Of a DNA stretch of 64,000 nt, positions 631-64,000 are shown piece by piece. Origin of the DNA: Brachionus koreanus (Eukaryota; Rotifera; Eurotatoria; Ploima; Brachionidae); assembly GCA_016987375.1 (NCBI GenBank), contig PJRA01000509.1, positions 1,155,978 through 1,219,977 on the forward strand. The letters are read 5' to 3'. The number at the start of each line of letters is the position of its first letter. The first letter of the stretch is position 1. The notes below the pieces were generated by a model. That model worked only from the letters and a program-made list of their open reading frames with translations, searched no databases and was not told the origin of the DNA. The position numbers and the translations under genes were made by a program.

Positions 631-3600
631 TTACAAATAAAATAACTTGTCGCACAATGAATTATGATGCTCTTTGTGCAAAGATTGACCGATAAGATAG
701 GCCAACTTATGAGCATACTGACACGTCGCTGGCACTCGAATAGTGCCAGGCCAATTGTAATACATGTGACACATTTTGTAAGTCATTTTTTGATACAATT
801 CTGGCGCCAGATTTAATTTATCATAGACGACATTAAAGTGAGTTGGATTCACAGTTCCCTGTGTTACACATTGAGGAACTAGATAGAAATCAAACCATTC
901 CTGTCTAGTCACCACAGTATCAATAACAGTTCCGCAAGGCGGATTTTCAAGGCCTCTTCCAGTTGACGCAAAAAATCTTGCGTTTACTCGTTTTTTCACA
1001 ACAATAAATGACAATAATGGACTAATAGAATTGAAATTTATCTTAGAAAAAAATAATTACAACAAAATGCTGTAAAATACTTGTATTTTGAATCAATCAA
1101 GTTAAACGCTTTTTGAATTTGTGGAATTTCAGATTCCATAACTAATTGAAGCTGTCCATCACTTACACCATCTCTATATATAACAATTCTTTTAGGAAAT
1201 GTTTGATTAGTTCTATAGAAATGCTCACAAGCCGCTAAAATATTAAAATTTAATTGAATTAGATAAAAAAATAATATTTTTGAAAATTAGTCTAACATTT
1301 TACTGTTAATGTAAGATTGTAAGCTAATTCCTGATGAGTCTCTTGAATCATTGCTCGCGAAAAAAATCTACTTTTATTTTGATTTGATGTGGCAACAAAC
1401 GCACAAACGCTACGATTTTTTTTCGAGCTATCATGATAAGTGTCTATTCCACAAATCATTGTATCAGTGAGGGGAATGTTAATTGCCCAAATTTCACCAC
1501 CAAGTTTGGCGTTCATTTGAATTGCTACTTTGGTAACAATGCTTTTATGCTTGCGTTCATCTTCCAATATTTTTGTGGTCACAACTTGACTTGGCACTGG
1601 ACTTTCCAAGCAGCAGACACGCTTGACAGCATCGTATATGTCCTTTCGTTTGCTTGTGAGCAAAACAACAGCCATTTGTGTAGATTGATTAACATGGGAC
1701 TTGAGCGCATTGACCAAAGATTCGGCATTGTCGCGAGGAATCGAAATTTCTTGAGGAGCTTGGGCCAAAAACTCCATTGGCTTGGATACTGATCGGAAAG
1801 TCTGTAAAAATTGAGTTGCTGTGTTTCGTTTATTTTGAGGAAAAATGATTATCCAATTATTAAGCCTTATTGTTTTCAGTAAAGGACAACCCTTCAAGTC
1901 GTTAGTCCAGTCAGCTCGTTCGTTTAATCGTTTAAGAACATCCTTATTTGAAAAAGTAAAATAAAGTTTAAAAAAGAAATTTTTTTATTACTCTGCCAAA
2001 TAGAAGAGTCTCGAACTGAAGTATTCTTCCATTTATTTCGGCCGGTCTTGATTCAAAATCCATTTGCCAACGCGAAAGCTCACCTTTTACTTTTTCATCT
2101 GTTTTAAATCGCTGCACAAATTCAGACAGCCGTTTGCATCGATCGCTTGGTCCCACTTTTGAAAATGTCTCTACCGCTTTCTTAAAATTGAAGTCCATGC
2201 GCATTCTTTCATCAACTCCTGTCAATATGCACAGTTCAGGCACTAGTAAAATAGGCTTTGTTAGACCTCTACGCTTATCTTTAGCACTGGGCAATATGCT
2301 GAGCAACGGCTGCATCCGATCTTTTATTTCAATTTTATAAGCCTAAATTATGGAATAAAATCAATTTCTTTTTTCTAAACTTGGAAAAATTAGCCCTAGT
2401 TTTTTAAATTAAATTTAAAAAATTAAGATAAAAATATTTTTTTGAATAAATTTTTAGTTGGCAATTTTTTAAATCAATCTCAGCAAGTTTAAACTTTATT
2501 GATTACAATTAGAACAGTCTTTTAACTTTAAATTTTCATTTTTTAATTTAAACTAATCTATAATTTATATTTATGGCAATTCTTACTTTACTTTTTTAAT
2601 ATAATAATTACTGTACAATTAGATTTATTTCTCAAATCAATAAAATTCTTAAACCTCAATATACGAAAAAAAAGTATTGATTGAAAATTGAGCAAAATCA
2701 ATTTAATCTTTTTTTTTATCATTATTATTTTAATTATTAGTTTATTAATTATTTAAAAGTCAATTTAATTTAGAATTAATAAAAGTAAAATTTATTTAAA
2801 TTTCTTTTAGCATATTTTCTTATTTTAAAGTGTCTCCAAAATAGTGTCTTTATTGAAAAAATTAAGAAACTAAACTTTGTTTAAAAATATATACCTAGAC
2901 TTAAACTCAATCTATTTGATTGATATGGATAAATATATATTTATAAAAAAGTGTCTTGGAGACTAACGAAATAGGGAACTAAATAAAAAAATTAATTTAG
3001 GCCCAAAGAGAATTAAAAAAAATGATCTAACCTCTCTATAATAGTCTATGAATGTGGTCGTTCCATGCAAAGTTTCAAATTTATCTGAAGGCTTTATCTC
3101 CCAGGCAATATCGTTGATTCTGTAAGTTTTATCATTATATTTGGTCATAACAATTCTTCCAATAAGTTCATTTGAGCATGCATCACGAAATTCATTATCA
3201 CTACGAGTTTTATCATATATATCCATCATTACTTTGTACACAGATGTCTTGTGAAGCAGTTTATGTATCATTTCAGCATTTAGCAACAAGTGGTGTTCAT
3301 ACAAAGCAATTGAAGTGGCAAAACCATTTATCATTTCTAAATTATAGCGTTCAATTGTTATCTTATTTCTCAAGTCATAGTAGTTTCGATCGATTTCTTT
3401 CATTCCATACAATTTCAAGCATCTTCTGAATACTAAATTAAACAAATGAACAAAATTAGGAGATTCGGGGACAATTTCAGCAATTCTTTTAATTTTTATT
3501 GAAATAATGGCCCCATCCGTTTCTCTTTTGCTAGCCACTTCAGTTGTTTCATTTTGCAATTTTGTCAAAGAGTAAAGAGTGCTACCGTCAAAGGCTTTGT

Positions 3601-4186
3601 TCATAGGAAAAAGATGATCATGGTTCCGCATCAAGCCGAGTCTCATTCTACGAGATTCAATGGGTGGCATAAAATCAACATGATATTGGTACAGAACCCA
3701 ATCAGGAGAATTAACAATTTTAAAATAATTACACAATAATTTGACTGACTGACCTCCAGTTCCAACAGTATTAGTCCTATCTTCAGGCCTAGTCCGGTAC
3801 ACCTGTTCAATTCTCATTTCTCGTTTGGCTTCCGGTTCACCTTCTCTTAAAGACATTCGTTCTATTTGGCCGATTACAGTGGACGTTCCTGCTTGGGCAA
3901 AAGCGCCTCTGACCGAAGCTCTACCCGATGTGGTCGAAGTCCTCGGAGGTGAATGCTGCTGAGGCGGGCTTTCTCCACTGCTTCGACTTACTGGCGAAAT
4001 TTGTCCACTTTGCATGCGTTCTTGTTCTGGTGCTATTCCTCTCCCCCGTCCTGTTTGTTCCACTGGTGGAATCGGTGCTCGCTGAGGAGTGGTGACCTTT
4101 GGTGCTGCGGCTTCTCCTGGCGCTGCTACAGGTGTAGGCTGCGGCACTGTGTTAGTGCGAGCTCGACCGCGTGATCGACCTGACAT
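631..4186 (-). CDS. piwi: Piwi-clade Argonaute (complete, 5 exons)
   Basis: PIWI proteins bind piRNAs and silence transposons in germline and stem cells, by target slicing and chromatin effects. Exons, 5' to 3': 4186-3032, 2342-1992, 1942-1297, 1234-1081, 1021-631; all junction phases fit, giving 898 residues, usual for the family. The N-terminal ~110 residues are Arg/Gly/Pro rich, with GRSRGR, GRGRG and SGRASVRG stretches that look like arginine-methylation sites for Tudor proteins. A PAZ region follows (about 300-415), then MID and PIWI. Slicer residues appear intact: D669 in GIDTYHD, E707 in HQELAYN, D739 in [11 protein letters not shown]873 in [10 protein letters not shown]. The [13 protein letters not shown] and [11 protein letters not shown] motifs are diagnostic. 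Exon 3 is ended at the GTTAGA donor (1296), not the nearer GTAAAA, because only that keeps frame and the expected spacing to RDGV. Transcription is divergent from the RhoGEF at 5516. Confidence 0.96.
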
Positions 4187-5515
4187 TAGTATTTGGATTT
4201 TTTTGCGTATAAATTTTAAAGCTTATAAAAAAATGAAAAAGTTTTTAAATTTTTTTTTAAATTAGATACTCGAATCTATGATGAAAAAAAGCACGTTTTT
4301 CTATTTAAACATTTAAGTGTTCACTTGAACGAGGAATGAATCAATTGAACATATACGAATAAAAGGATCATGAAAATTCTATTAATAAAAAAAAATGATG
4401 AAATTTTTTCAGCGAGGATGCTTTTCATTATAGAAATTCAAAGCTTGAACAAAAGCTTTATTTTATTATCTAGAGACCTATTTTTTTTTTAATTTAATTT
4501 TTTTTTAATAACAAAATTGATTGAAAATTAAAATTAATCTAGTAAAAAATTGAAAAAAACTTAAATTTTAATCAGGCGAAAATGATTTGATTTATCCCGG
4601 TCAAATGAAAATTTTGATAAAGAAAAATTTCTATCATCTGGACATAAAACTATCTAAAGACAAAAGATAAGCCTTAATTGATTGACGTCTACTCTAATTT
4701 TAAACAAAAATCTGTTTTTTTCTCTTCAAAGACTCAAGGCCTGATTTTTAAACCTGATTAAAAAGTAGTCAAATTGAATTTAAAATAAAATATAATTAAG
4801 AACTAGAGAAAAAATACAGTTTCTTGGTTATGTAACAATTTAAACAGCTTTTATTTACCTTTAGTATTTATTTTGTATCAGTTATCAAGTATGAGCTAAT
4901 GAATATATCTATCTAACAAGCAATCTTCATTTTTCTTAAGGCCATCAATTCAATAAAGCTTATTTAATGCGCAATCGCACATATTATGATAAGAATCTCT
5001 AAATGAAATTTAAACTTTTTTGGTTCAATTAAATCAATCATTAGAATTTTTATAATCCAAAATAGAAAAACTGTTAAAATTTACCAAAAATTTCTGATAT
5101 TTATTTGAAAAAATGAATTTTTCAAATTTAGATCAGGAATTTAAATCTTGATAAAGCAATTTTTAGTTTAATTTTTAAAACAATTAAATTTTTTATCACT
5201 CAAAAATATAGATATTATCTTAAAATTACAATCAAATTGAAAAAAAAAAACAAAAAGCATCTGAATTTTGACTTTATAAGCAAACAGATTTAAAATTTCT
5301 CATTTAAATTTCATTTTACATAATTTAAAATTTTTGGTTGATTTGTCGAAATTCACAAGTCTAGAAATTAGCCAAATAAAACAAGCTAGCATACAAACAA
5401 ATCTTTCAGCCTAGGATTTGAATTTTATATCAATATTGGTATTAATTTAGAGCTAAAAAGAATTTTAAATTTTGGTTTGGATAAATCTGGTAATCTTGTT
5501 CCAAAGTTAACAATA
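4187..5515. promoter_or_regulatory. Divergent intergenic region between piwi and RhoGEF
   Basis: This 1.3-kb AT-rich interval separates two genes transcribed away from each other, so it must hold both promoters and 5' UTRs. No coding exon and no clear TATA box or repeat could be singled out. The role is inferred from position only. Confidence 0.5.
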
Positions 5516-38050: not shown

Positions 38051-39343
38051 ATGAATTTGAAAATTTTGATTTTAAATTTTTATAATATTTTTTTGTCTAC
38101 AGCCACATATTTAATGCCATCTTTTGATCGCCCATTCGAAAATCTCACAGTAATAATCGGAAATTCAGCTACTTTGCCATGCTTCATATCAAATCTAGGA
38201 GACCACAAAGTCGCCTGGATAAAAGTATCAAATATGGACATTTTGACCATTGGAGATTACAAGGTCACCAATGACAATAGGATAAAATTGCCTCAGGGAT
38301 ATGCTTCAGACTGGTCATTATCAATCAGTTCAATCAATGAAGATGATGCTGGCGAATATATTTGCCAGGTGAACACCGAACCGCAAATTATATCAAAAAT
38401 ATACCTTAATGTTCAACGTAAGATTCTGAGAATTAAAAAACAAAAATATAATTTTTTTTAAGTTCCACCAAAAATAATTGAAGAGAAATCTACCATAAAT
38501 CCATCTCCAATCAAAGAGGGCGAAGATCTTAGACTTTATTGTCATGCAGAAGGTATACCTTCTCCTCAAGTGTCTTGGTTTTTTCGCAAGATTCGGATCA
38601 GAAATGAAAGAGTTTTCATCAAAAATCTTAATGTTTATGATCACATAATTCATGAGGGTGACACATTAGTAGTTCGAAATATTTCACGTTATCATACTGG
38701 AATTTATGAATGCATAGCTAATAATTCTGTCTTACCAGCAGCCTCACGTAAAATAAAAGTGTCAGTCGAATTTGGTCCCGAAGTACATACAGAGCAGAAA
38801 ATAGAGCAGTTTATTGGAATGGATGTCCGACTTGAATGCAAAATAAAATCAAATCCTTTAATAAATCACTATTGGATGAAAGGAGATCGGGTTATTGTAA
38901 GTGGAATTGACAAAAAAGATAAATATGAAATGTCAATATTCAGCCATAATGATTATGTGACTATTAGTATATTAATTGTTAAAAATTTAACAGCAGATGA
39001 TCTGGGAAAATATGAGTGCTTTGCAATTAATGGAAGAACAGCTTCTAAATCTGAAATTGTTTTAGATGAATTAGTAATTAGACGTTATACATCACCAAGG
39101 CCTTTAGCTTCAAGGATAATGGTCTATCAAGACAAATTTACAATAAGTAAATCGACGCATGTAAAATTACACCGAAAAAATTCCAATTCATCTAAATTAG
39201 TTAAGGATGTTAAACTTTCTGATGAAGAATATTTAAATAGAATTTTTAACAATCGAGATAATTATCTATCCGTTTCGTCGAGACTTAATACAAAGTCTTT
39301 TTGCTTATTAATTGGTCTAATTATTTGCTTTATAAGAATGTAG
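38051..39343 (+). CDS. Lachesin/IgLON-like surface protein with three Ig domains
   Basis: Members are cell-adhesion molecules of neurons and epithelia. Two coding exons, 38051-38417 and 38463-39343 (phase 1), give 415 residues; a TTTTCAG acceptor at 38028 suggests a separate upstream non-coding exon. A signal peptide (MNLKILILNFYNIFLSTATY) is followed by three Ig domains. Cysteine pairs are TLPC/YICQVN, LYCHAEG/YECIAN and LECKIKS/YECFAING; core tryptophans are VAWIKV, VSWFFR and HYWMKGD. Ig1 has the NLTVIIGNSATLPC and NLGDHKVAWIK pattern typical of lachesin, DIP and IgLON proteins. The C-terminus is a hydrophobic tail (FCLLIGLIICFIRM) with no cytoplasmic part, as expected for a GPI-anchor signal. 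AATAAA at 39358 is a likely polyadenylation signal. The exact orthologue is unclear. Confidence 0.9.
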
Positions 39344-46699: not shown

Positions 46700-48983
46700 A
46701 TGTCTAAGACAGTTTGTTTTATGCTATTAATAATCGCATTAAAAATCAAAACAATTAAACCAGAGTATGTAAGAATACCATACAATCAGTTATCTACAGA
46801 CTGTTCCAAAAATTTAAAATATATAGAAATAAAGGATTTATTTTTATTTTCAAAAGTAAGTTTTAGAGATTTTACATCATTATCTCAAGTAAAATTGAAT
46901 TGTTTTAAAAAATATCTGAAACCTATCCAAACGATAACTTTTTTACCGAAGAATCAAGTATCGTTGGATAATGCATTAGTAATTCCCCTTAATATAAGTT
47001 TTTTTTTCCAATACACTTACTTTGAATTTGCTTATATCAATGATTTTGATGAATGTCTCCATATATTTGATGTATTTTTGGAAGACAAAGTAGAACTGAA
47101 TGTGTTTTTTTTTTACTAGACTAGAAATAAAAAAAAAAGTTTCTTGGAATTTTGATAATGCAGCTTGCGCAATATTTAGAAAAATTAAAAGCCTAAATTT
47201 TTTAAATATTTGCATTTATAGCTCATCAACAAATCCATTAATTTTCAAAAATAGTAATATAGAAATGCTTATTATAAACGGATTGGTAAATACTTTGGTC
47301 AAGAAGAATTTTCTTGAATTTACTCGAGTCAATGTAAGTCTCAATTCAACAATTGACTCTGTAAAACTAGATTTTTATCGAAGTAGCTTAACGAAAAAAT
47401 TACTCGATCCATTAGTTTTTGAAAAAACCAAAGAATTAATGTTATCTGGAAGAATTGCAAGCATAGATAATGACCTTTTTTATAGTTTAAAAAGTTTTAA
47501 GGAAATAAATGTAGAAAATTTGGACAGTTTTCACTTCTTGAAAAATGGTCTTAAATTTTTAGAAGGTTTGAACTTTAACCTAAAATTAGAGTCGAACACA
47601 AGCGAAAATTTAAAAAAAAATACCGTAAATTTTTTCATTTTAAATTATAATTTTCCAGTTGAAGATTTTTGCTTTTTTCGAAATTTTCCTCAAAATAGAC
47701 TTATTTTGGTCCGATCATGGACCGTTTCAAAATGTAGCTGCTTACAATTTTGGCTATTTAAATCATATTTTTTTGATTATGGAAAAAAAATAATTCAAGA
47801 AAATAATATTTGTTCAAATTTAAAAGAAGAGATTTTGTGTGATTTTAATCATATATTAGACAATTGCAAAAAAGTTAAATTTTCAAAATTAATTTCAAAG
47901 ATAAAACGAGACTTTTACTTTGACGCTCAGTCATTAAATTTTTTAATGCTTATATTAATTCCTTTCTTTAGTTTTATTGGTATTTCATCAAATCTTTTGT
48001 CAATCGCTACTATTAGTATAATGCTAGAGTCATCAAAATTTTCACGCAAAATGTATAAATGGATGAAAATAAATTCAATAATGAATTTATTCTATTCTAT
48101 CATATTTTTATTTCATTTGATGAGCCTATGCCTTTCTATAAAAGGCATCTATTGTCCTGAAATAAGCCGATCTTTTACATTGCAATACTATGAAATATTC
48201 GTTGTTGATTTTGTTGGTGGTATTTTAAAAACACTATCAAACTTGATTACTTTGTATGTGTCTATTGAGAGATTAAAAAATTTAAATAATCATTCAATTC
48301 AAACTTCAAGTAGAAAAAAAAATTATCTAAAATATATTTTTGTTTTATTAATGATAATTATTACAATAGCATTAAATACTGAGAAGCCTTTAACAAGTGT
48401 TGTGAATAAGTTTGATTTTGATTTGTTGATAGACGTTGGTTCATACTCAGAATATCCGATTAGAAACAGTTTTAAAGGCGTACTGGATCAAAAACTTCCA
48501 TTTGTGACGGCTAAAATTGAATTCAAAGCAAAAAATCCACTCTATTATGGACTATTTATATCTAATTTCATTTATAATGATGTAATTTTATTTGCTTTTA
48601 TATCTATTGTAGACTTATTTTTAGTTCTTAGATATAGGGAAAAAATTAATGAAAAAAAAAGAATTCTATTAAATTTGTTTAATAATACTTGTAGGAAAAA
48701 ATCTATAGAGAAAGTTTCAAGTATTAGAATAACAACTATAGTATTAGTCTATTCAGCTTTTTTGTTATTCTTTCGAATTTTAGAATTAATAATGAACATA
48801 TTGGTCTTTAAGCATAGTCAAAGTGGCGAAAGATGTGATCATTTTAATTCAATTTGCACCATTTATTATCAAACTGGGAATTTTTTTTATCTTATTACAT
48901 CATCTTTTACAGGATTAATTTATTTTTTTTTGGACAAAAATTTTAGATATTCATTAAAAAAACTAATTGGGATAGAATCATAA
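46700..48983 (+). CDS. Seven-transmembrane receptor with large LRR-like ectodomain (one frameshift)
   Basis: A signal peptide at 46700 (MSKTVCFMLLIIALKIKT) opens an ectodomain of about 410 residues with leucine-rich, LRR-like spacing (SLNFLNICIY, IEMLIINGLV, SFKEINVENL) and cysteines near the membrane. Seven hydrophobic helices follow. TM1 is around LNFLMLILIPFFSFIGISSN, TM3 ends in LITLYVSIER (an ER instead of the DRY motif), and TM7 with LIYFFLDKNFRYSLKKL looks like the rhodopsin-class end. The coding sequence is intronless but breaks at a 10-T run (47105-47114): the first frame stops at 47117-47119 and the rest continues one base off, so one base fewer in the run restores continuity. This is a sequencing/assembly slip or a recent mutation. 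I recall similar lineage-expanded receptors in rotifers; the ligand is unknown. AATAAA occurs near 49022. Confidence 0.75.
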
Positions 48984-51392: not shown

Positions 51393-54300
51393 TTAAACAT
51401 TTGCTTGATTGATTTTTTGAATAAATTTACTCTTTTCAATACATTGATTATTTGTAGAAATTTTATGGTCCTTTAGAATTTTTCCACCTGAACACCTTGC
51501 ATGTTCAGGACATAGCCATAAAATTTTACCATTCTTTAATTCATATTTATTTAGGCCATAAAAGTCTTCTTTTAGGTTAGTATTAAATTCTTTCAAATAA
51601 TAAAAGTCATCTTTTTCATATTTGTTTATGAAATAGTTTCTTAAACTATTGTAAGAGTCTATTATATCATTCGACTCATCATCTGCTTTTTCTTTTATTT
51701 CTTTCAAAAGTTCTTCTCCTTGCTCTGAAAATAAAAATCCAAATTCTGTAGAATTGTTTCCATTTTTTAATATTGTAATGATTCGATGCAAGTATAGGCA
51801 ATTTGAGGTCAATACGCTTGGATAAGGAACTAAAACATCTGTAAAATGCCAATATTCATCATGCTCACACATTGGCCGAATGAAAGTTATAAATTTTTTT
51901 GATTCTGATAATTCTTCCGAGTCAATAGATAATTTTGGATCTTCTTTTTGAATTTCAGTTAAATCTGCAGATTTTTTATGTTTAAACATTTGAAATTTGT
52001 GTTCGTGTATCAAGTCTAAAAAGAAAAGTCGAGGATATGATCGAATTGTTGCCACTCGATCTGAAAACTGAATTAATTGACGCAGAAATTTTCTTTGTGT
52101 CAATTCGTAAAGCTCATTAAAGGCGTTCATGTTGGAATCATCAATAGAAATTTGATTTTCTGATTCATTGGGAATACTTTTATCTTGAATTTTATCTAAT
52201 TCATGTTTGACATAATTTATGAGTAGTGAAAATGCCTCTAAAAAAAAATTTATTATTATTAAATTTATTTCTTATTAATAATAAAAAAAAATTATCAATC
52301 ATTTTAATTTTTTTAATTACGTGTTGATTAAAATGATATTAAAGCATTAACGAATGCAATGGAAAAAAAGAAGTAAAATCTTAAATTAAATCTTGAATGC
52401 TATTGACTGCGTATGAAAATGGTTCACTATGGTCAACTAGTGTACAAAAGGAAATGGTAAAAGATTCAAAGCAATGAAATTTAGAAATCAATCAAGTACA
52501 GCAGAATACAACAAAAGCAGGGTTTAAATGGGTTGACATTTGGTTAATGCGGATCAATATTAGCAATTGTAAGATTATGCACTTAGGGAAACATAAACAG
52601 AAGTCAGCATAAATAGTTAAAGACAATTATTCTCAGAATTGTTTTCGTATCGAAGACACAGTTCGTGAAAGATATCTCGGAATTATCATATTGAACCATC
52701 TCAAACCTACAAACCAAACGAACAAAGAGGCGGCCAAGGCAAATATGCTAAAAAACATATTTTACAATAGAGATATCATAACTTAGAAGAGTCTGTCTTA
52801 GAAGTTCCCAGTTTGGCCATTGTGAAGGGTTAAAGGCAAGCTATGCCTTGAGACGGTGCAGTGCTGTGTCCAAAAATGGTCCATGAATTCAAAGGTATAC
52901 TGGAAAAAGAAAGATACCATAATTTCAATATTTTATCGTTAAATCAACGAAGATTTAATAGAAAAGTTCAAAGGAATAAAAGAACTAATTTGGCTTTTCA
53001 ATCCACAATCATAAATGGTACGCTCAGGAGGCAAATTGTTAGATGTTGTAATCAAAACATACAAAAATTGAGGTACTTGAGTACTTGAAGTTATTCTAAG
53101 ATTGAAAACTCGTAAAATAAATTTTTAATTTTTTTAAGTTTCTTTATTTTATTTATCTCAAAACCTTAAAGGTTATGTAAAGTATGAAAAAAAAATAGAC
53201 AAAAATTTTATAGTTTATAAATTTAATAAAAAAGTTTATTTTATATAATTTCACTAATAATGTTTTAGTTTTTTTTTCGATTTTTATAAATTTAATAAAT
53301 TGAACAAATTTTTAATTTAATCATCTTGGTTAGCTAAATCTTAAAGTCAAAAATCAAAACTTGTTAGGGCACAGGGTGTTTTTACCAAGGTCAAAGATAA
53401 ATAGCCGATTTGAACGAAAACATTAAAACAATAAGACTACTATAGTTTTATAAAATAAAGAATCTATATGTGCCTGAAATCGATAGAAAATATCGATAAA
53501 AAATATTTATTTAAAAAAAGCTCATGCATCAAACAACAAATCAAGGAATTGAAAAAAAAAATCTTGTTGTAATTAACTTTCATTCTTGCAAAAATTTATT
53601 TTTTGTGTATAGGGGTCTATAATAAAAAATAATTTTAAACTAAATAAATAAAAAAAGTAAAACCATAGTTTTGTTCAGAATTTAGTCTAATTTTAAAATT
53701 TACATAAAAATATACAGGTAAAGGGGTTTGGAAAAAAGTAGATCCCGAAAAAGTTAAAAATTACAAAATTTTTCCCATTTTTTTCGGAAAAAATTCTCAA
53801 TTTTTTTTAAAGATAACCATCTAAGAATATAGAGCATTTAATTCTCTATCAGAAAATGTGTCGATCGGGTAGATTCGTTTGATAAAATTCTGAGATTAAA
53901 TCGCTTAAATAAGATACACTCAATAAAAAAACTTAAAATAAAAAGAGCACAAAATTTATCTATCACATTTTACCTTGATGTAAAGCTACTCAAGCAGAAA
54001 ATCTATAAAATTACCTTGTGTTTCATATTGAAAATTAACCTCTGGATAATTGCTGCCCAAAAAAGCAATTTCATTCTTTCGCCACTCGTTTCCAAGACCA
54101 ACGACAGCTTTGACTATTGGAATTTTGAGCGATATATGAGCGAATCGAAATTCTAGCTTGCAATTTTGTGATTCAACATATTCATCAGACACACATGCCA
54201 CAATAACTTTAGCCAAATTCATTCCTTTTGTTATTTCGCCAAACATTTGAGTTGTCGAATCTAAATTGTCCACATCCAACCACGCATTTATTTCATTATC

Positions 54301-57300
54301 GGCAAAAAATTTCACCAAACTTCTAGGATCTAGCCAACCAAGGCTTTTTTTAGTTGCTTTTGATCCTTTTTTTATTGCATCATGAGAATTCGCCCAACAA
54401 TAACTTATAAACACATCTGGGTTTTTCTTTCCACTCTCTTTTTTATGATCAGTTTGCACAATTTTTTCAATGGATTCTAATGCATCAGCTATTTTTGTGG
54501 CATATCGCTTTGGATCTTGCATTATTATTCGAAAATCAGTACAAGTGGAAGCAAAGTTTGTATTCTTAAGCCATTTTCGCGCACCTTGTAGTCCAAATTC
54601 AATTAAAAGATAAGCTTTCCTAATGAGATTTTTAGCCAGTTCAAAAACTTGGATGCATTTAGAGTCCATCGAAAAATTGTCCGAAATAGCGAATATTACC
54701 AATTTTGATTGTTTAATGATGCTTGTTATTTTGTCAAGTTTTTCATCAGATGGTGTTTTAGAATACCATATTTTATAGCCTTGTGATTCAATCGCTTTTA
54801 TTACAGTCAAAGGATTTATGGACCTCTCTGAATCAAGATTTGTGTCTTTTTCGCAGTACCAAAACATGATATCATAATTGAATTTTTCCTTAAGATTTTT
54901 TAAGTCTCTTATAGAATACTCCAGATTTAAATCCAAATTGTCTGATTCATCTATGGGCATTATAGCCATCATTTCCTCTATTGAAACAGCATGAAAGGAC
55001 CTCGCACACTGTAAAAAAGGAGCTTTCATTTCGTTTGCTCTTTTTAATAAAGTAGAACTAAATAAGTGTGGATCATTTGATTGAGACTCGACACAATCAG
55101 GGCATGGAAAACTATAATCATATTTTAGTCCATTAAAAGAATCATTGATCAATGTTTCAATTGCTTCATGAATAACCAAGATTATGTTTTCTGGCTTAAT
55201 CCCTTGCACTCTAATTTCAATTACTCGAAAATCACTTAATTGGGTTATCATTGCCAAATGAGAATTCTTTTTCAACAACGAACCTGTTTTCCAGATGGAT
55301 GACTCATCTCCAAATTGATAAAGTCTGACTTGAATCCGGTTAAATAAACCGACAGGAAGATAGTCAAAAGTGTAAATAACCTTAAATTGCTTGATCTTAA
55401 TTGAAGAGTTGTGCTCTATTTCAGGCCAATAAAAGTCTGGTTCAGTTTCGGGCAAAAGACATGGAATTATGCTAGTTTTTTTATCTGACAAGCTAAATGT
55501 AAGATCAAATTCTTCTGTTAATTTAAGCATCCATTCATGCAAATTTATATCATAATCACTCCAAACTTCTTTGAGCTCATCAAAAGTAAATTTTCCATCC
55601 TGAATATTGGTATCCTTTACCGAAACTATTCTAGCAAAGGCGTCTACTATCCATTGAGGATTGATCACTAATCTATCTTTCAAAGCTTGATTTTCAAAGT
55701 ATTGAAGCGATCCTAAATCATGTAAAAAACGGATCGATTGCTCTAATTCTTTTTCGTCATATATGCCGTTCTGTTCGGCTAACTGCTTTGCCTCTTCATA
55801 AAGTATCAAGGGCTTTTTTAATGCATTCATTTTAATGCTATTCTCAAATTTTAACCATGCTATCTTAAATAGTATTTTATTTATTAATTAATGCAATGGC
55901 TTTTTTCTTTAAATAAAAAAAAATTATTTTAAAATAAGCAAAATTTTTACTTAAACAGTTAAACTTAAAGAAAAGGAACAATTTTGCAAATTTTTAAATA
56001 AACAAAAATTGGAACTTTGAATTTTGGAACAAAAGAAAAAAAAAATTTATCTAATAATTGAAATATTTTTTTTCTTTGGTCTAAACGTCTTAGCAAATGT
56101 TTGGCAAATTTTAAATCTAATGTCAAAACTACTTTATCTTCAAGAAAGTAACCATGAAAAGAACTAAAAATGATAGTTTTTATTCCTCATTCAAAATCCT
56201 TAAATTATCTAAAATAAACAAAATTATTGATATTCTGAAAAAAGTCTAGCTATCGATTTTGATAGTTTTACTACATTGACTTAAATAATGCATTTAATTA
56301 TAAAAAAGTTATTTATGAGCTAAATATCATGTTTTTAATCGAATTTAGTAAAATTATCAAGGTATATAATTTTATATGTGATTTCAAAATTGGTATTTTT
56401 CTAAAAAAAATTCCAATATTCTTGTATTTAATCAGCTATGAAGTTAAAAAAAGCATTTTTGTTTTTAATTTCTAAGAATTATTATACAAATACTGATTAA
56501 CATGTTATATCCTACACAAGCATTGTGCACAATTATCCATGTATTAAATTTTACATAAATTTGAAGACATAAAAAATTAACTAGTATTTTTCTTACGGGA
56601 ATTTTTTCTCCAATGTATTTCTCTCCTAAAGTAATTTCTATAATCTTTTTTTTCAGTTGATCAATTCCATAGTTAGTCGCATTTGATACAAAGTAAAATC
56701 CGGCAATATTTTTATATCTTGATTTTAAACTTTTTTGATTCAAGTTATATTTAGAAACCTAAAATTAAAAATTTCAATTTTGTTATTAACTTTCCAGAGT
56801 TGTATTAAAGTTATTAGCTAAAAATTAATTCACTGATAGATTCTTTTTCGTTTCTACCCACACTTATAGATATTTAATTAAAAAAAATTTTATTTAGTAT
56901 TTACCATTTTTTATCAATTAAAGGAAAGTTTGATCGTCAAAGTGTTTCCTCTATTCGAAAATATTTTAGTCCAAATAAAAGAAATTTATCTATTTTTTTT
57001 TTATTTAAACCAAAAAAATAAATGTTTTATATGACAAATGGCTGGTAAATTTTCTTTTAAACAAGTCGCTTTTTTTTGAGAAAAGCAACTCAAATGAGAG
57101 GAAATTTTTGGCTCAAATTCTAGCAGGCTTCTTCTATTTGGGGTTACTTTTATTTGTTAAAATGGTTATCTTGATCTTACTTTTTAAAAATCAAATGTCT
57201 AAATATCTTTTCTAAAAAATTAAACATGAAAGAAATAATTCTCCCACGCTTATTAAAAATGAAAGTTTCTCATGCTAATTAAATGTCTTCTTTTTTAAAA

Positions 57301-60300
57301 GAAAAATGCAGGGTACAATTCTGTTTTTAGAATAAATAACAACTTAAAAAAAAAATCTCGTACTAAATTTTTTTATTTCAATCTACATTCAATTCTTTAT
57401 AATTTAAATTTTCTAATCTGAACTTAGAATAGTACAATCAAAATTAACTTGGTAATATCGTGGGTTCTTTACAGTGTGACAAAATTTATTACGTGACAAA
57501 AATTAAAAAATAAACTTAAGCATTGAAAGTTTATTTATTTAACACTAGAAGCACTAAAGGAGTCATTTTGACTTTTTTGAAAATTTTTAAATCCTCGTAT
57601 CTTTTGAATAAATTTTTCAAATGAATATATCTTTTTTGATTTATGTAGATTTTAAAATTTTCTTTAAAAAAGATATTACTTTATAAAATCATTTTAGTTT
57701 TTTTATAAAATATTTTTGAATTAAAAAAACGTGAAAAAATGCTTGGTGCTTCTAATGTTAAAAACTTGCCTTTGAAGCTAATCAAAAAATGTTTAAAGTC
57801 CTTTTTTTGAGATGATTTTTTAAAAATATTCGTTTAAATTTGATCATAAACTTCAATTTGCTTTAAAGAATTATAATTTTATTTGATTGGGTCAAACGAA
57901 ACATAGTCACGCAGTTCCATGTATCTTAATGTCACAACATTAATAAAAAATATTAAGAAAATCTTTCAACAAAAAAACTAATTTAATTTTTCCTGCTATG
58001 ATTAAGTCAAGTCCAAAACCATTTCATAAATTTTCAAACTCTTGGAAAATTATTTAATTCAAGACTAAATAAAACCTTAATAAGATTGAAAATTATAAAA
58101 AAAGATAAAATGTATTGATAGACATATTTAAATATTCATAATTACTTACAAATCAATCTTTTATCAAAAAGAGATTATTTATGAATCGCCATTATTAGCT
58201 AACATATGAAAAAAATTGAATTAATCGTTTAACATGAGTTAGTTCTCTAGCAAGGATTTAAAAAAAATATAATTTATTTCGTGAAATTTTTAATCATATA
58301 AAATTTTATATTTTAAATCCAGATAAAATCTATGAATATTTAATTTTTAATTTTTTATATTGAGAGGGCCAATTTACAAAAATGTGTATTTTAAATAAAA
58401 CTTGAATGATATTAATCATGATTTAAGTGTTAAGTAGAAAAGAGATAACAAAAAGTAAATTATTACCTATTTGCTTGGACTAGATTGAGATTACTGTAAT
58501 ACAACTCTAATATCATTATATTTTTACTTACTTGGTCAATATGGGTTCCCACTATGATTACTGGTGCACCTGGAGCATGACAGCTAATACTACTGAGCCA
58601 AAATTCTAAACCAGCATACTCACTTCCCAGTCTTACATTCCAAACAAGCAAATAAATTCCTCTTGAACTCAGAAAAAATTGGTGCGTATTGTAATAAACA
58701 CTCTGACCAGCAAAATCCCACATTGAATATGTTAATTTAGAATCGTCTTCAAGATCAACATGCCAATCGTCAATACTAATACCATCAGTAACTTCACATT
58801 TTTCTTTTTTAATTCCTTTTAAAGCTCTTAAAAGAGATGTTTTTCCAGCCTGTCCCAAACCGACAAGCATTAATCGGGTTCTCTTTAGTTCAACTGAACC
58901 TGATATTAAGCGCTTAAGATAAGTCATGACATAATCCATACCTCGATCAACTATTTCAGGTGGTGGAGTTACTAGAGAAATACAATTAGTCAAATCGAGT
59001 TTTATTAATGACAAGTTGGCTAATTTAGGACTTATATTTTCTAATAAAACACAATTATTTAGGATCAGACTATAAAGATTTTTTAAATTTTCTATTTCAT
59101 CTGGAATTTGTTTGATAGATTGAAAACTAAAATCTAATGTTTCTAATTGAACCATTTGAAAAATAATACTTGGTAGTTGGGGACCTATTCGCAAAAATTT
59201 CTTGAAAATAAAAGCATTAAAATTCAAAATTTCATCAGGTTCTAAATATCCATTTGAATTTGAATCAAAAAGTTTGAAAAGTTTCTCTAATTGCTCTGAG
59301 TTTAAAATTTTGTTTTTCGACATCTCTTTTATAAAATTTTCTTTGCCGATTAATGAAGTATTTTTAAGGTATTTTTTCGGATCTAAAAATGGTACACCTA
59401 TAAATTTTAGATTTATAATATTGACTGGATTTAATTTAAAAGTGAAATGGGCAAAAGAGGAACGAGCAATTTTTAGGTTTTCCAATTTATCTGGAAGATC
59501 GATTTCTGTCTTCAAGTCTTTGATTTCCAAGTTTTCTAGCTCGAGTGTTTCAAGGCTCTTCATTTGACTAAAGTTTAAGTTATCAAAATCAATTTTATTC
59601 ACAAAAGACAGGCTTTTTAATTTTTCTAAATTGAAAATGGATCCAGGCATTGAGTTTAAATTGTTATTCCATAATTTAAGAAAAGCCAAATTTTTAAAAT
59701 GGATAAAAAAATTCTCATCTTTAATTGTTAATGGAACGCTGATTAATATTAAATCTACTAAATTGTGAAATTTTATGGCAAATTCGGTCTCCAAATGTAG
59801 TACTTTATGAGATGTAATTATGCCAAATCGAAGACAAAATTTTGAATATTCATTTATTTTTTTGTTTATTGGGTAATCTTCTTTGCATGATTGACTGTAT
59901 TTATGATCAGCTAAATAACAATAGTAACACCGTCCTAAAGGACTAGAACTTTTTTCGAATCTAAAATTATTTGATTCATTTTTATCAATAATCTCTGAAT
60001 CAAAATGCTTTTTCAGATCAATATTAATTATTTGATATTCGAGTTTACTCTGATTCAAGAATATGCTCATTTTTTCGAAAAAATACTTCAAATAATTTCG
60101 AATATGTTTAGTTAGTTCAAATTCGTCAAGGTTTGGCTCCTGATGGTCGAAAATTATGCATTTATCAGGCACAATTGAATCAAACTAAAATTATAGAAAA
60201 TTTTAATTTAGGTTAAAAAAAAATTGATATGATCATTATAAAATTTAATATAAAAAACGAGCTAAAATTATTTTCACTTGAATCTATTAATTTTAGTTAA

Positions 60301-63300
60301 ATTGTTTCCGATAAATAAAAAAATGAGTATATTTTAAGTATAATAGACACTTTTTATTAATTTTGTAGTTGATAATTAAAAATAATCCTAACTTCAGTAT
60401 TTTTGTTTTTCAAATTATATTTTTTGTTATTTTTATATATTTATACGCCTATCTTTATAATTTTTTATTTGTATCAAAAAAAATTTTTTAAAAATCTATC
60501 CTAAAAAAATTAAAATAATATTCATTATTGTTCATTTTTTTAAATTTAAATTTTTAACAAGTTTTAATTAAAAAATTATTTTTTTGTCTTTTTAGTCTTT
60601 GATTTAAAAACTAGCTTTTGAGTATTAATTTAATAAAGCTATTCAATTTAGTTCGAATATAACATATTTTTATTAATTGCTATAATTAAAATAAATTAAA
60701 AAAAAATTACCTTAGATTTGTAAACTAGAAAGCTTGTTATTAAAATGACAACTAAGTCACTTGAGCTAATGTTTTCTTTTTGAATTGAAACTCCTTTACA
60801 ATTAAGCAAATGAGCATAAACTGTCTTGTCATCGTCTAACCTTGTCATGCAACACATATGTAAATTTACATTCTCTAATAAATTATTTTTCTGATTAATT
60901 AAATCATTTAAATTCTTTGGCAACAACAAAAGTCCTCTTAATGGAGCGGAAATCTGGTCATATTTCATCTTTATTTGTTTCTCCATCAGGTAGACCGATT
61001 TTTGTTCCATAAAATTGTGTAATAACTTCAAATTAACTTCCGAATTCTTCAAGCATTTTTTTTGAGTAATTTGATTTTTGTTTCCTTTGAAATCTTTAAA
61101 GCTCATTCCACTTTTTTGCTCCTAACATTTTTCAAATGTAAATTAACTTTCAGGAAAAAATTCAAGAAAATTACATTTGTAAATATAGAAAATGGCACAG
61201 CTTGAAATTTATTCTCTTTTAGGAATTGAGTCCAGTAAAAATTTTTCCTGATCTTGTCATTATCTTAAAAAAAAGATTGAATTGTAAATAAAAAAAAGAG
61301 AAAAATTTACTTTTTAAATAAGAAAATTTAATATTTTTATTTTCAATTTGACCGTAAAACTCATTATTTTTTTTTTTCTTTTTTGTATAATCATACCAAC
61401 CAACTGGTCTCAAATCAAGATCATCTATCTCTGCCCAATATTCACAGTTTGTCTGAATAATACTGACAAGAACTGAATTATTTCTAGCTTCAACTATAAA
61501 AATAAATTTTTAAAAAAGTGAATAATTTATTTTGTTGAGTCATAAAATTTTGCGTTTTATTAAAGATTCGATATTTTTGATTTTAAAATCTTTGTAATTC
61601 AATAGCTCTAAGTCATATTATATGTAGGAATAAAAAGAATTGAATGCTCCTCAAAATGATATGTCTAATTCTTTATATGTTTAAATCTAAAAAATTTTAT
61701 AAAATGAAAATTTTGAAATTTTGGTATTTTTTGGTTATTATTGGAAAAATTATCATCTGATTATCATCTTTTTTGGCTCAATAGCTCATTTTCTTTGGAT
61801 TCACTAACTAAGTCCTGATTGAAGAAGAGTTAAGTAAACTTTGGGTTCAAAAGCCGTGAATAGAGTAATTGAAATAATGGCTGATAGATAGCTAAAGATT
61901 ATAAAGTATAATGGTTTATGTTCTGAAGATTAGCTTACTATTACTTTTTTAATTTATCAATAAAAAAAGTTAAAAAACGCAAAATTTTTAACTCACCCTA
62001 ATATTTCGTATTTTATTGTACTTATTTTGGCACAAGCAAAAACACTACTCTTTTTTCGATCTCTGGCTTCTAGATAATGGTCGATTAAACAAGATATCTG
62101 ATCTTTAGCATACTTTATTTTAGTTTTATTATTTTGCATTAAACTTTTTCCCAATTCTGATTTAAAGCTTAACTCATTACTTAAACTTCCAAAATAAGGA
62201 ACTAAATTACAATTAGTGCATTCGATTTCAAATAAATTTTGATTATTCAAGTAAAGCTTAATATTTGTTTCAGTTTTCTCCTGAAAAGCAAGATTATTAG
62301 ATATTTTCTTTAAAAATTATATGACAAACTTTTTTTAAAAATTCCAATTTAACAGTATCGCCAATTTTAATTTGATTATCTAATTGTGACTCTTGGGTTA
62401 ATAAACAATAGCAAACTTTGATATTTTCCGATTGTTTAAGTTTTACTTCCATTCGAGGCAAGTGAATAAAAATTTCTGAGCAATCAGCTTTTGGCCTAAA
62501 TCAAAAATATAGATTAAGTGATTTAAAAAAAAATTTTTCTCAAATTTACGTTGATAAGCAGATAAAAAAATTATCAATCATTATTTCGTTTAAAAAATTC
62601 AAGATAAAAAAATCGTGATTTTCATTTATACTAAATATTTCTGGTAAAAATGAAGTTAATTCAATCATGTTTTCTGATACAAATTTATTTGTCTCATGAT
62701 AATTTTTTACTCGAATTAATGTTTCTTGTAATGGTACCTCAAAAAATTTGGAAAACAATTCAAAATATAAATTTTTTAGCTTTTTAAATTTGACAAATTT
62801 TAAATCACAATCAGAACATTTCAATTCATGCATTTCATTCATTTCAAAATTGTGATGCCGAATTTGGATCATTTCCTGTAAAAAGTAACAATCACAAATC
62901 CAAACAGATTGGATAACTAAAATTTAAAGGATTATTTTAAAGTAAAAAATTAAATTTTATATTTAACCCTCTATCAAATCTGCCTTTTTTTCACTAATAT
63001 CACAGTCAACTGGGTGATTGAAAAATTCATCATCGTATTTAATCTTAAATTGAAAATTGGCAAAATTCAATATTTTTAAATTGTTTTTTAATATTAGAAA
63101 AGCTTACGGAATAAACAATTTGAGTTTTAAAAAGCAAATATTTCAAAAAGAAATAAAAATTCATGTAAATTGCCTTGAAGTGTTTTAAATAAGACTTATC
63201 ATTTGAAATAAAATTTTGTTCAGGGTTCATCATTCTGACGCATAAATGAACTTAAATTTAATTAAAATTTTAATAAATTTTTTTTTTAAGAATTCAAATT

Positions 63301-64000
63301 TGAATTTAAAATACCTTCTTTTTGTGAATATCTAACCAAAGCATCGAAATAAATATCTTGATATAAAAATCCATTTTTAAAAACCTTAAGAGACGTTTTT
63401 CTATCAAAAAACATTGAAACAAATTCAGCAAAGACATTAAATGGCAATGGTGAAAATAGCTCCCATGCTATTTTGTATTCCAAAAATTCCTTTGAACTTT
63501 TTTCATCCCATTCGTTCTTGGTTTAAATTTTTGAATAAAGCTTTTAACAAAAAAAAATAACTTTATTTCTTACTAAAATTGAATTTACATCTGTATTCAA
63601 ACAGAATAGAGAAATTATTATTTCCTCATCTGTTAAAAGTATGAGATTGTTTTCTTTCAAAAACGAAATCAAATTATCAAATATCTGATCAGTAAAGCAC
63701 CATTTTTGTAGTCTTTCTTTGAGTGCTGATATGTTCCAGACAGGAACATTTGGGCCCAAAATAGAATTCCATGTTGGATCATCACTGTTTTCTTTCGATA
63801 AAATATCAATTATATTTTTCAACCAATTTAAATCAGTAATTATAAATTTGGTTTTTTCGTTAAAAAAAAATTGTCCTCGAGCACTTTGCGCTCTGGCATA
63901 ATTCAAAGAAAGCTGTTTGAACTGATTTAGTTGATAATTACGAAGATTTTCATTCTCTAAAAATAACTGATTAAGTTCGTCAATCGTCAAAATAGGTCTA
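51393..64000 (-). CDS. Giant Roco GTPase with MBT-like, LRR, EF-hand, Roc-COR and tandem TIR domains (5' end beyond window)
   Basis: Exons, 5' to 3': 64000-63574 (partial), 63516-63315, 63250-63108, 63043-62968, 62875-62550, 62495-62330, 62280-62022, 61493-61311, 61263-61175, 61121-60711, 60184-58532, 56758-56597, 55863-54015, 52237-51393; over 2,200 residues. Phases agree except at 62968/62875. Domains in order: COR-like 1 (QFFFNEKTKFIITDLNWLKN, AWELFSPLPFNVFAEF); CxxC segments; MBT-like repeat (HYLEARDRKKSSVFACAKI, YWAEIDDLDLRPVGW, WTQFLKENKFQAVPF); LRRs with an EF-hand loop DSNSNGYLEPDE at 59266-59231; Roc GTPase (P-loop GLGQAGKTS, DFAGQ, GTHID); COR 2 (LHDLG, INPQWIVDAFARI); TIR-like 1 (YDIMFWYCEKD); TIR-like 2 (PDVFISYCWANS, VIVACVSDEYVESQNCKLEF); C-terminal domain with ILWLCPEHARCSGGK. 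By family knowledge, Roc-COR is a GTP-dependent dimer switch and TIRs signal in immunity or cleave NAD. The role here is inferred. Confidence 0.88.
52500..53100 (+). mobile_element. Non-LTR retrotransposon (LINE) reverse-transcriptase relic
   Basis: Frames here encode KWVDIWLMRINISNCKIMHL, then RYLGIIILNHLKP followed by NKEAAKANMLKNIFYNRDII, and later KMVHEFKGILEKERYHNF and ILSLNQRRFNRKV. Together these match the end of LINE reverse transcriptases (WxxxWxMxFNxxKCxVMHxG, YLGIxIxxxLK, KAAxKAN, ATKxVxxxxxLxYxxRLxxLxLxxLxxRR). Several stops and frame changes show it is dead. It is antisense to the host Roco gene, within its intron. Confidence 0.85.
53640..53728 (-). repeat. Second copy of the 40220-40325 repeat
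   Basis: The reverse complement carries TTCTGAACAAAACT, GGTTTTACTTTTTTT and TATATTTTTAT in the same order and spacing as 40220-40325. The two copies are clearly related but diverged. This marks a dispersed repeat family. Confidence 0.7.
55864..56596 (-). other. Intron between Roc and COR exons of the Roco gene
   Basis: Phase 0 intron between GEKIP and IAWLKFENSIKMNALKK; A/T-rich with nothing else recognised. Confidence 0.75.
56759..58531 (-). other. Intron inside the Roc GTPase domain, with a MITE
   Basis: GTAAGT donor directly after the GTHIDQ (G4) codons at 58532, acceptor at 56759, phase 0. It contains the piggyBac-type MITE at 57539-57761; the rest is A/T-rich. Confidence 0.8.
57539..57761. 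mobile_element. piggyBac-type MITE at TTAA
   Basis: It is bounded by TTAA on both sides (57539-57542 and 57758-57761). Inverted repeats are CACTAGAAGCACTAAA on the left and CATTAGAAGCACCAAG on the right (reverse complement), about 13 of 16 identical. A subterminal palindrome AGTCATTTTGACT follows the left repeat, a feature I associate with invertebrate piggyBac MITEs. It is 223 bp with no coding capacity, in the Roc intron. Confidence 0.8.
60185..60710 (-). other. Intron before the LRR/Roc exon
   Basis: Phase 0 intron joining LVYKSK to FDSIVPDKCIIF. A/T-rich; no other feature recognised. Confidence 0.75.

Follow-up and report, generated by a model that had tools for sequence, protein, structure and literature searches.

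The stretch of DNA analysed here (the window) comprises 64,000 nucleotides of the rotifer Brachionus koreanus, positions 1155978-1219977 of contig C15 in a genome of 83.3 Mb and 92 contigs. Its last part is occupied, on the minus strand, by a gene (copy A) which, judging from its domain composition, belongs to a small family of giant rotifer Roco guanosine triphosphatases (GTPases) carrying a pair of TIR domains. As far as homology comparisons indicate, the new element of this family is a dynein microtubule-binding domain placed before an N-terminal COR domain (COR1) in sister copies of the gene; it lies outside the window.

A fourteen-exon Roco gene and its sister copies

Copy A was rebuilt exon by exon as 14 minus-strand exons, running from 63999 down to 51393 in one open frame of 2,281 residues, in agreement with the first-pass annotation, which had proposed 14 minus-strand exons and a single protein of over 2,200 residues. 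All 13 introns have GT-AG borders and are in phase, the terminal TAA being the sole stop; the proposal that 12 of the 13 junctions are in phase was thus not sustained (the out-of-phase junction had not been named). Three splice sites look weak, namely the donors GTTAAA and GTTTGT and the acceptor AGCTAG, and the 5' end of the gene extends past the window edge (beyond 64000).

The first exon in the window (63574..63999) would encode the first part of COR1, its COR-A half, according to the splice model, a pooled profile and a Foldseek comparison (see below), and the gene continues 5' of it. Exons 2-7, 9, 12 and 14 were placed by the splice model. Exons 2 (63315..63516; COR-B half of COR1) and 3 (63108..63250; COR1 end) are kept in copies C and D. 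Exon 4 (62968..63043), a short linker exon with the weak donor GTTAAA, has no match of its own in the copy comparison; exon 5 (62550..62916), a Cys-containing module after COR1, is weakly kept in copies C and D (28-30% identity), and exon 6 (62330..62495), a linker with the weak donor GTTTGT, has a short match in copy C. Exon 7 (61997..62280) leads into the MBT repeat and is about 35% identical in copies C and D, its copy D counterpart matching the MBT start only at an expectation (E) value of 0.064. The core of the repeat lies in exon 8 (61311..61483), and the intron before it closes in phase with the weak acceptor AGCTAG at 61483. Exon 9 (61175..61263) may start a second MBT-like unit, as suggested by eye from its sequence pattern, and exon 10 (60711..61121) is a conserved region with no Pfam match, 40-47% identical in copies C and D. 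Exon 11 (58532..60184) contains, by Pfam and by motifs in relatives, LRRs (59471-59698 and 59030-59149), an EF-hand loop region (59222-59293) and Roc (58535-58876), the last part of which is encoded by exon 12 (56597..56758). Exon 13 (54015..55863) accommodates COR-A (55453-55860) and COR-B (54970-55389) of the second COR domain (COR2), followed by TIR1 (approximately 54454-54885) and TIR2 (approximately 54015-54420), as identified with Pfam, AlphaFold2 and Foldseek. Exon 14 (51393..52237) encodes a conserved C-terminal tail with the stop at 51393.

Copy A is much more likely to be one gene than two, because its stop-to-stop frames match copies C and D in identical order, the copy B model has piecewise matches to copies C and D along its length, and in copy G COR2, both TIRs and the tail lie in a single open frame (another frame of this copy comprising LRR-Roc together with the Roc end encoded by exon 12 in copy A). 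The single gene of the first-pass annotation is therefore borne out by the exon phases and by the exon order in the sister copies.

A genome search revealed COR-A and TIR_2 matches close together on the same strand at nine loci (counted by eye): copies A to G, one locus on contig C37 and one on contig C16 at 1.475 Mb. Copy B is the tandem neighbour of copy A (C15:1223330-1239918), and copy C lies on the same contig at about 785-802 kb. Residues 1 to 2768 of the copy B model find piecewise matches in copy D (C2:3866197-3880841). Copy E, on contig C27, has no matches in the middle, 5,022 of its 27,501 bases being N, and only the C-terminal half is seen of copy F, on contig C32, where 15,945 of 30,000 bases are N. 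Copy G (C16:606-612 kb) is apparently a short form, because it is readable (no N among 30,000 bases) yet has no match to the N-terminal half.

The domain calls of the first-pass annotation were upheld, with qualifications, in copy A, for which Pfam was run on ten exon frames. Roc (4.9e-20), COR-A, COR-B, the two TIRs and LRR_14 (1.8e-10; 40.5 bits vs a cut-off of 40) were recognized by Pfam and the N-terminal COR by profile and fold comparison, while MBT (E 0.04; 14.6 bits vs a cut-off of 22) and EF-hand_6 (1.8e-4) remained below their curated cut-offs; among the MBT, EF-hand and TIR calls, it is thus the last (TIR_2) that passes its hidden Markov model cut-off in copy A. In the genome-wide search MBT was over the cut-off in copies B, C and D, copy A being missing from the list; by Pfam it reaches 3.8e-12 in copy D and is strong in the amphioxus protein P0006 and the Adineta protein P0004. 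The FDGW motif, which we take to be the aromatic cage for methyl-lysine in the MBT repeat, is gone in copy A and in its closest relative, P0003 of B. plicatilis (62.5% identical), and is kept in copy B and P0006. The EF-hand call comes down to one canonical 12-residue DxDxDG...E loop, DSNSNGYLEPDE, between the LRRs; the loop pattern recurs in 14 of 16 sequences, copy G and P0002 being those without it. The G1, G3 and G4 patterns of Roc are all present in copy A, whose Roc accordingly has intact nucleotide motifs; across 16 sequences, G4 was found in every one, G3 in 15 (not in copy G) and strict G1 in 14 (not in copies C and F).

COR domains and the TIR pair

COR-A (7.2e-31) and COR-B (2.4e-30) directly follow Roc in copy A, and Pfam detected no kinase domain after COR in exons 13 and 14. 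By its predicted domains, copy A possesses the Roc and COR-A/COR-B that characterize Roco proteins and falls outside the LRRK subfamily. The AlphaFold2 model of exon 13 (mean predicted local distance difference test score, pLDDT, 71.1) retrieved with Foldseek COR structures first (3dpt, 4.9e-18) and then plant RUN1 TIR structures (9.6e-5).

TIR_2 was matched in copy A over two stretches (3.6e-13; 50.5 bits vs a cut-off of 28). After the S..C motif, TIR2 has a glutamate (Glu; codon 54151-54153, minus strand) invariant in all nine aligned proteins, and at this position TIR1 has a hydrophobic residue in seven of the nine, the two Adineta proteins being not surely alignable there (by eye). The best sequence match of the TIR2 profile is Cat1, a CRISPR-associated TIR (2.1e-5), with the TIR2 Glu aligned on a Cat1 Glu. 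The pair may consist, judging from these residues, of one degenerate TIR (TIR1) and one possibly catalytic TIR (TIR2).

A serious rival, which we nevertheless somewhat doubt, is a non-enzymatic scaffold, in which the two TIRs do no more than associate with other TIR proteins, as happens in signalling by TLR and MyD88, and Roc-COR sets the assembly state. Several matches are in its favour and count against a catalytic TIR2: the TIR2 profile also matches the TIRs of TLR6 (0.0014), TLR1 and MyD88, TLR6 and TLR1 have Glu at the same place as TIR2, and SARM1 was reached by the profile only at E 0.59 or worse. The loss of Glu from TIR1 in the relatives alignable there would suit a scaffold as well. 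To our knowledge, TLR TIRs generally do not cleave nicotinamide adenine dinucleotide (NAD+), and since they have the Glu too, we do not claim NAD+-cleaving activity from this residue alone. Against the scaffold stand Cat1 as the best sequence match, RUN1 as the best TIR fold match and the invariance of the TIR2 Glu. Because TLR1 and TLR6 share the Glu and the SARM1 match is weak, the TIR2 Glu fits but does not prove enzyme activity, and the TIR matches do not strongly separate the enzyme reading from the scaffold one.

A 419-bp tract spanning most of TIR2 (53972..54390, minus strand) is identical between copies A and B, and the preceding 100-column blocks of the exon are 57-86% identical; the tract looks like a recent gene conversion, or else an assembly effect. 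The 5' end of copy A (window 63153-64000, introns included) shares 93% identity with copy B over 853 columns, with the mid-gene strongly diverged, and might represent a second converted or exchanged stretch.

COR1 gave no Pfam match in the exon frames of copy A or in the sister copies scanned. When the COR1 sequences of copy B, P0003, P0004, P0005, P0006 and P0008 were pooled, the resulting profile matched the family's own Roc-COR profile with a score of 54.8 over 303 columns. A chance match was rejected, as the controls were far below this value (22.3 at most in 60 column shuffles, 21.5 with the reversed profile). The AlphaFold2 model of P0003 COR1 is of low confidence (mean pLDDT 57.6); its top four PDB matches in Foldseek were all COR-containing Roco structures (3dpt twice, 3dpu and LRRK2), with E of 2.3e-4 to 4.1e-3 and a root-mean-square deviation of 14-16. 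The presence of an N-terminal COR is thus supported by comparison of profiles and of predicted folds.

Over its whole length, the Roc-COR profile is matched by the N-terminal halves of the amphioxus P0006 and the clam P0008 (6.3e-5; score 47.1 vs at most 26.4 in 40 shuffles), and the Brachionus N-terminal half aligns with them at 1.6e-5. In direct hhalign comparison with Roc-COR, only this pair matched until the six COR1 pieces were pooled, no match being obtained for the N-terminal halves of Brachionus, Adineta and P0007/P0009. The score of the Roc-like part before COR1 taken alone is no better than chance. Considering these three unmatched sets and the non-significant Roc-like part, a lost or degenerate Roc ahead of COR1 is only a suggestion; a full second Roc at this place, suggested by position, is not claimed on the latter ground.

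A dynein microtubule-binding domain in sister copies

The Pfam family MT, which represents the dynein stalk with its microtubule-binding domain, is matched ahead of COR1 in copies B (1.8e-7) and C (1.7e-14), and in a genome search with this family copies B, C, D and E, i.e., four of the nine Roco-TIR loci, all exceeded the cut-off. The matches at the Roco loci lie within positions 92-211 of 344, corresponding to the end of the first coiled coil (CC1) and the binding domain; among the other 22 hits of the same search, ten start no later than position 3 and end no earlier than 338, and the rest are partial. Compared with PDB, the dynein exon of copy C matched dynein axonemal heavy chain 2 at 4.4e-18, aligned from the CC1 end to H6, and isolated microtubule-binding domains at 5.2e-14 (3j1t) to 3.1e-8 (8i3j). 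The core between the CC1 end and H6 is kept in copies B, C, D and E, as well as in P0003 and P0016. Unlike axonemal heavy chain 2, the domain sits within a Roco protein, with no AAA motor and no full stalk; no AAA domain is listed for P0003, which accordingly does not qualify as a dynein heavy chain.

The dynein domain of copy B is joined to COR1 by a 50-base GT-AG intron, in phase and with no stop, and that of copy C by any one of four possible in-phase introns of 49-163 bases, the 49-base one having a GTAATT donor. The same succession is seen in two B. plicatilis proteins: P0003 (1,849 amino acids) has MT (1.3e-12) at residues 348-461, followed by COR1, LRR and Roc, and P0016 (615 amino acids) reads from the dynein domain into the COR1 of the window edge, its residues 318-591 matching the copy A model from residue 2 with 62% identity. 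The database name of P0016, 'dynein heavy chain axonemal', is apparently a misnomer.

In the MT exon, the proportion of amino-acid-changing differences (pN) is lower than that of silent ones (pS) in all six pairwise comparisons, with a ratio of 0.13-0.54; in five of them pS is close to saturation (0.70-0.80). The six Roco-borne dynein domains form one clade (100% ultrafast bootstrap) on a long stem in a 24-sequence tree; the support for its sister dynein class is 44 only, and we therefore refrained from naming a donor class. Copies D and E (L014/L021 and L015/L022) are nearly identical (pS 0.075 in the dynein-domain exon) and may be recent duplicates or two haplotypes.

Copy A likely carries the dynein domain too, because its 5' region hardly differs from the corresponding part of copy B (pS 0.084 in the first-exon region, with the 93% identity over 853 columns mentioned above). 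Searches with N-terminal parts returned P0003, P0016 and one dynein, and no further Roco protein among the approximately 8,000 candidates, of limited length, scored in each. MT was found in none of the six non-Brachionus relatives, either by the Pfam scan (P0004, P0006, P0007) or in precomputed Pfam lists (P0005, P0008, P0009), and the models of P0001 and P0002 from B. calyciflorus start too late to show whether it is present.

Several observations weigh against microtubule anchoring, in particular as a property of the whole family. The Roco-borne domain has no returning coiled coil. At the remaining five Roco-TIR loci no MT match lies close by: the sequence upstream of copies A and F reads N, which makes the own dynein domain of copy A unreadable, and none is listed for copy G, C37 and C16 at 1.475 Mb, the fully readable sequence of copy G having no match whatever to the N-terminal half. 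For two junctions lying still farther 5' in copy B, none of the splice sites tried preserved the phase. Finally, putative microtubule-contact positions differ between the copies (by eye), a comparison limited to variation between copies, K3299 being the only residue named as a contact in the literature excerpts at hand. According to an excerpt of one study, microtubule binding by dynein needs H1, H3 and H6 contacts, and some axonemal forms carry an H2-H3 flap (PMC6629372); the alignment of the Roco-borne domains contains no H2-H3 flap insert.

It is conceivable, though we consider it unlikely, that the dynein-derived domain lost microtubule binding and is now used within the Roco scaffold as a helical spacer or for interactions with proteins. 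The missing coiled coil, the long stem branch and the variable contact positions would be consistent with this; against it stand the retained core from the CC1 end to H6 and the prevalence of silent over amino-acid changes in every pair. Decidedly less probable is a ciliary rather than immune role, in which the protein would sit on axonemal microtubules and couple Ca2+ and the state of bound guanosine triphosphate (GTP) to ciliary control or stress. Rotifers depend on their ciliated corona, and among solved structures the graft is best matched by axonemal heavy chains (DNAH2 and DNAH6), but the remainder of the protein also occurs in relatives free of the graft, and the poorly supported sister class gives the axonemal assignment little weight.

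An old animal family and its possible mode of action

The nearest named relatives of copy A are proteins of B. calyciflorus and B. plicatilis, and a search of relatives for the same architecture found full-length ones in bdelloids, amphioxus and bivalves. Since these occurrences are complemented by published module lists for Aplysia, the architecture is that of an old animal family. The statement of the first-pass annotation that such modules are rarely found together is thus right only in part, as the combination is common to amphioxus, bivalve and bdelloid proteins, and the modules have been published for Aplysia (PMC9334734).

Branchiostoma LOC144915298 (P0006) and Adineta vaga I4U23_028336 (P0004) have the same order of MBT, LRR, EF-hand loop, Roc, COR-A, COR-B, TIRs and tail, with the N-terminal COR likewise visible by profile comparison only; unlike the sister copies, they show no MT match in the Pfam scan. 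P0006 has two MBT, two COR-B and three TIR_2 stretches, the third of which (residues about 780-900) appears by eye to lie inside its N-terminal COR. At its C-terminal end (residues 3030-3111), P0004 has a match to anti-lipopolysaccharide factor/scygonadin (5e-12), perhaps owing to a fused gene model. The bivalve LRR-Roc-COR-TIR proteins P0007, P0008 and P0009 resemble the C-terminal half, including the EF loop pattern and the tail, in which P0007 ends early; unlike the copy A family, P0007 and P0009 carry SPRY domains, and neither MBT nor MT is listed for P0007 (scanned) or for P0008 and P0009 (precomputed Pfam).

The Aplysia 'TLRs' with TIR, ROC and COR have the same kinds of modules, the Mbt repeat being reported in one protein and the EF-hand in another; the excerpted part of that report describes no N-terminal COR, degenerate TIR or dynein domain (PMC9334734). 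Likewise from excerpts, the domains named in a figure legend for Trichoplax ROC-COR proteins include MBT and TIR (PMC4104024), Roco proteins of brown algae are candidate immune receptors (PMC11378527), and AP-GTPase/COR proteins with LRRs have been described (PMC8195603). LRRK2 and LRRK1 share the LRR-Roc-COR core, and LRRK2 is reported to meet microtubules (PMC9758056); unlike them, the copy A family has TIRs in place of the kinase and WD40 domains, and its microtubule module is of a different kind.

That two genes were wrongly joined here, an N-terminal one (COR1-MBT) and a separate LRR-Roc-COR-TIR gene, is very improbable: P0001 of B. calyciflorus starts only at about residue 610 of the copy A model, past the MBT core, but it is labelled partial, one protein extends from the dynein domain as far as Roc in P0003, and from MBT as far as TIR in both P0004 and P0006, the exon phases run on across copy A, and the sister copies share the exon order.

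Besides copy A, the window contains an adjoining 627-residue open frame (47100-48980, plus strand) with no Pfam match at E 0.01, a frame with two immunoglobulin-domain stretches by Pfam (38462-39340, plus strand) and a frame with Pfam Piwi_N and PAZ domains, i.e., an Argonaute/Piwi-type gene (2966-4222, minus strand).

The reading we tentatively prefer, although we give it slightly less than an even chance, is that of a GTP-switched Roco scaffold, perhaps Ca2+-sensing, with a degenerate TIR1 and a possibly catalytic TIR2, some copies being microtubule-anchored. In such a protein, the dynein domain would hold its copies on microtubules, the LRRs, MBT or other modules would act as ligand sensors, Roc and COR2, possibly together with COR1, would form a GTP-controlled dimer, and Ca2+ control may come in addition from the EF-hand loop, which lies among the LRRs. 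Modulated by Ca2+ and by the ligand, GTP on Roc might then rearrange the dimer and bring the TIR2 domains together, TIR2 being the presumed output and TIR1 its structural partner; the assembled TIR2 would recruit TIR partners or cleave NAD+, giving rise to a stress, defence or cell-death signal. A Ca2+- and GTP-gated TIR sensor of immunity or death, as envisaged by the first-pass annotation, would fit this domain anatomy. In its most far-reaching form, which we regard as rather unlikely, the proposal is that in Brachionus an old animal Roco-TIR receptor acquired a dynein microtubule-binding domain by grafting and became a microtubule-anchored, GTP/Ca2+-controlled TIR enzyme, by which the cytoskeleton is monitored or used during defence or cell death.

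Among the matches listed in the literature searched, we recognized no dynein domain in a Roco protein, and a part of a motor protein inside an immune-type GTPase is, within the same scope, an unseen combination. The family also offers an animal TIR pair with one member devoid of its Glu. As LRRK2, the Parkinson kinase and a cousin of these proteins, also meets microtubules, a lineage with a built-in microtubule grip would provide a natural test of the effect of docking on the Roco switch.

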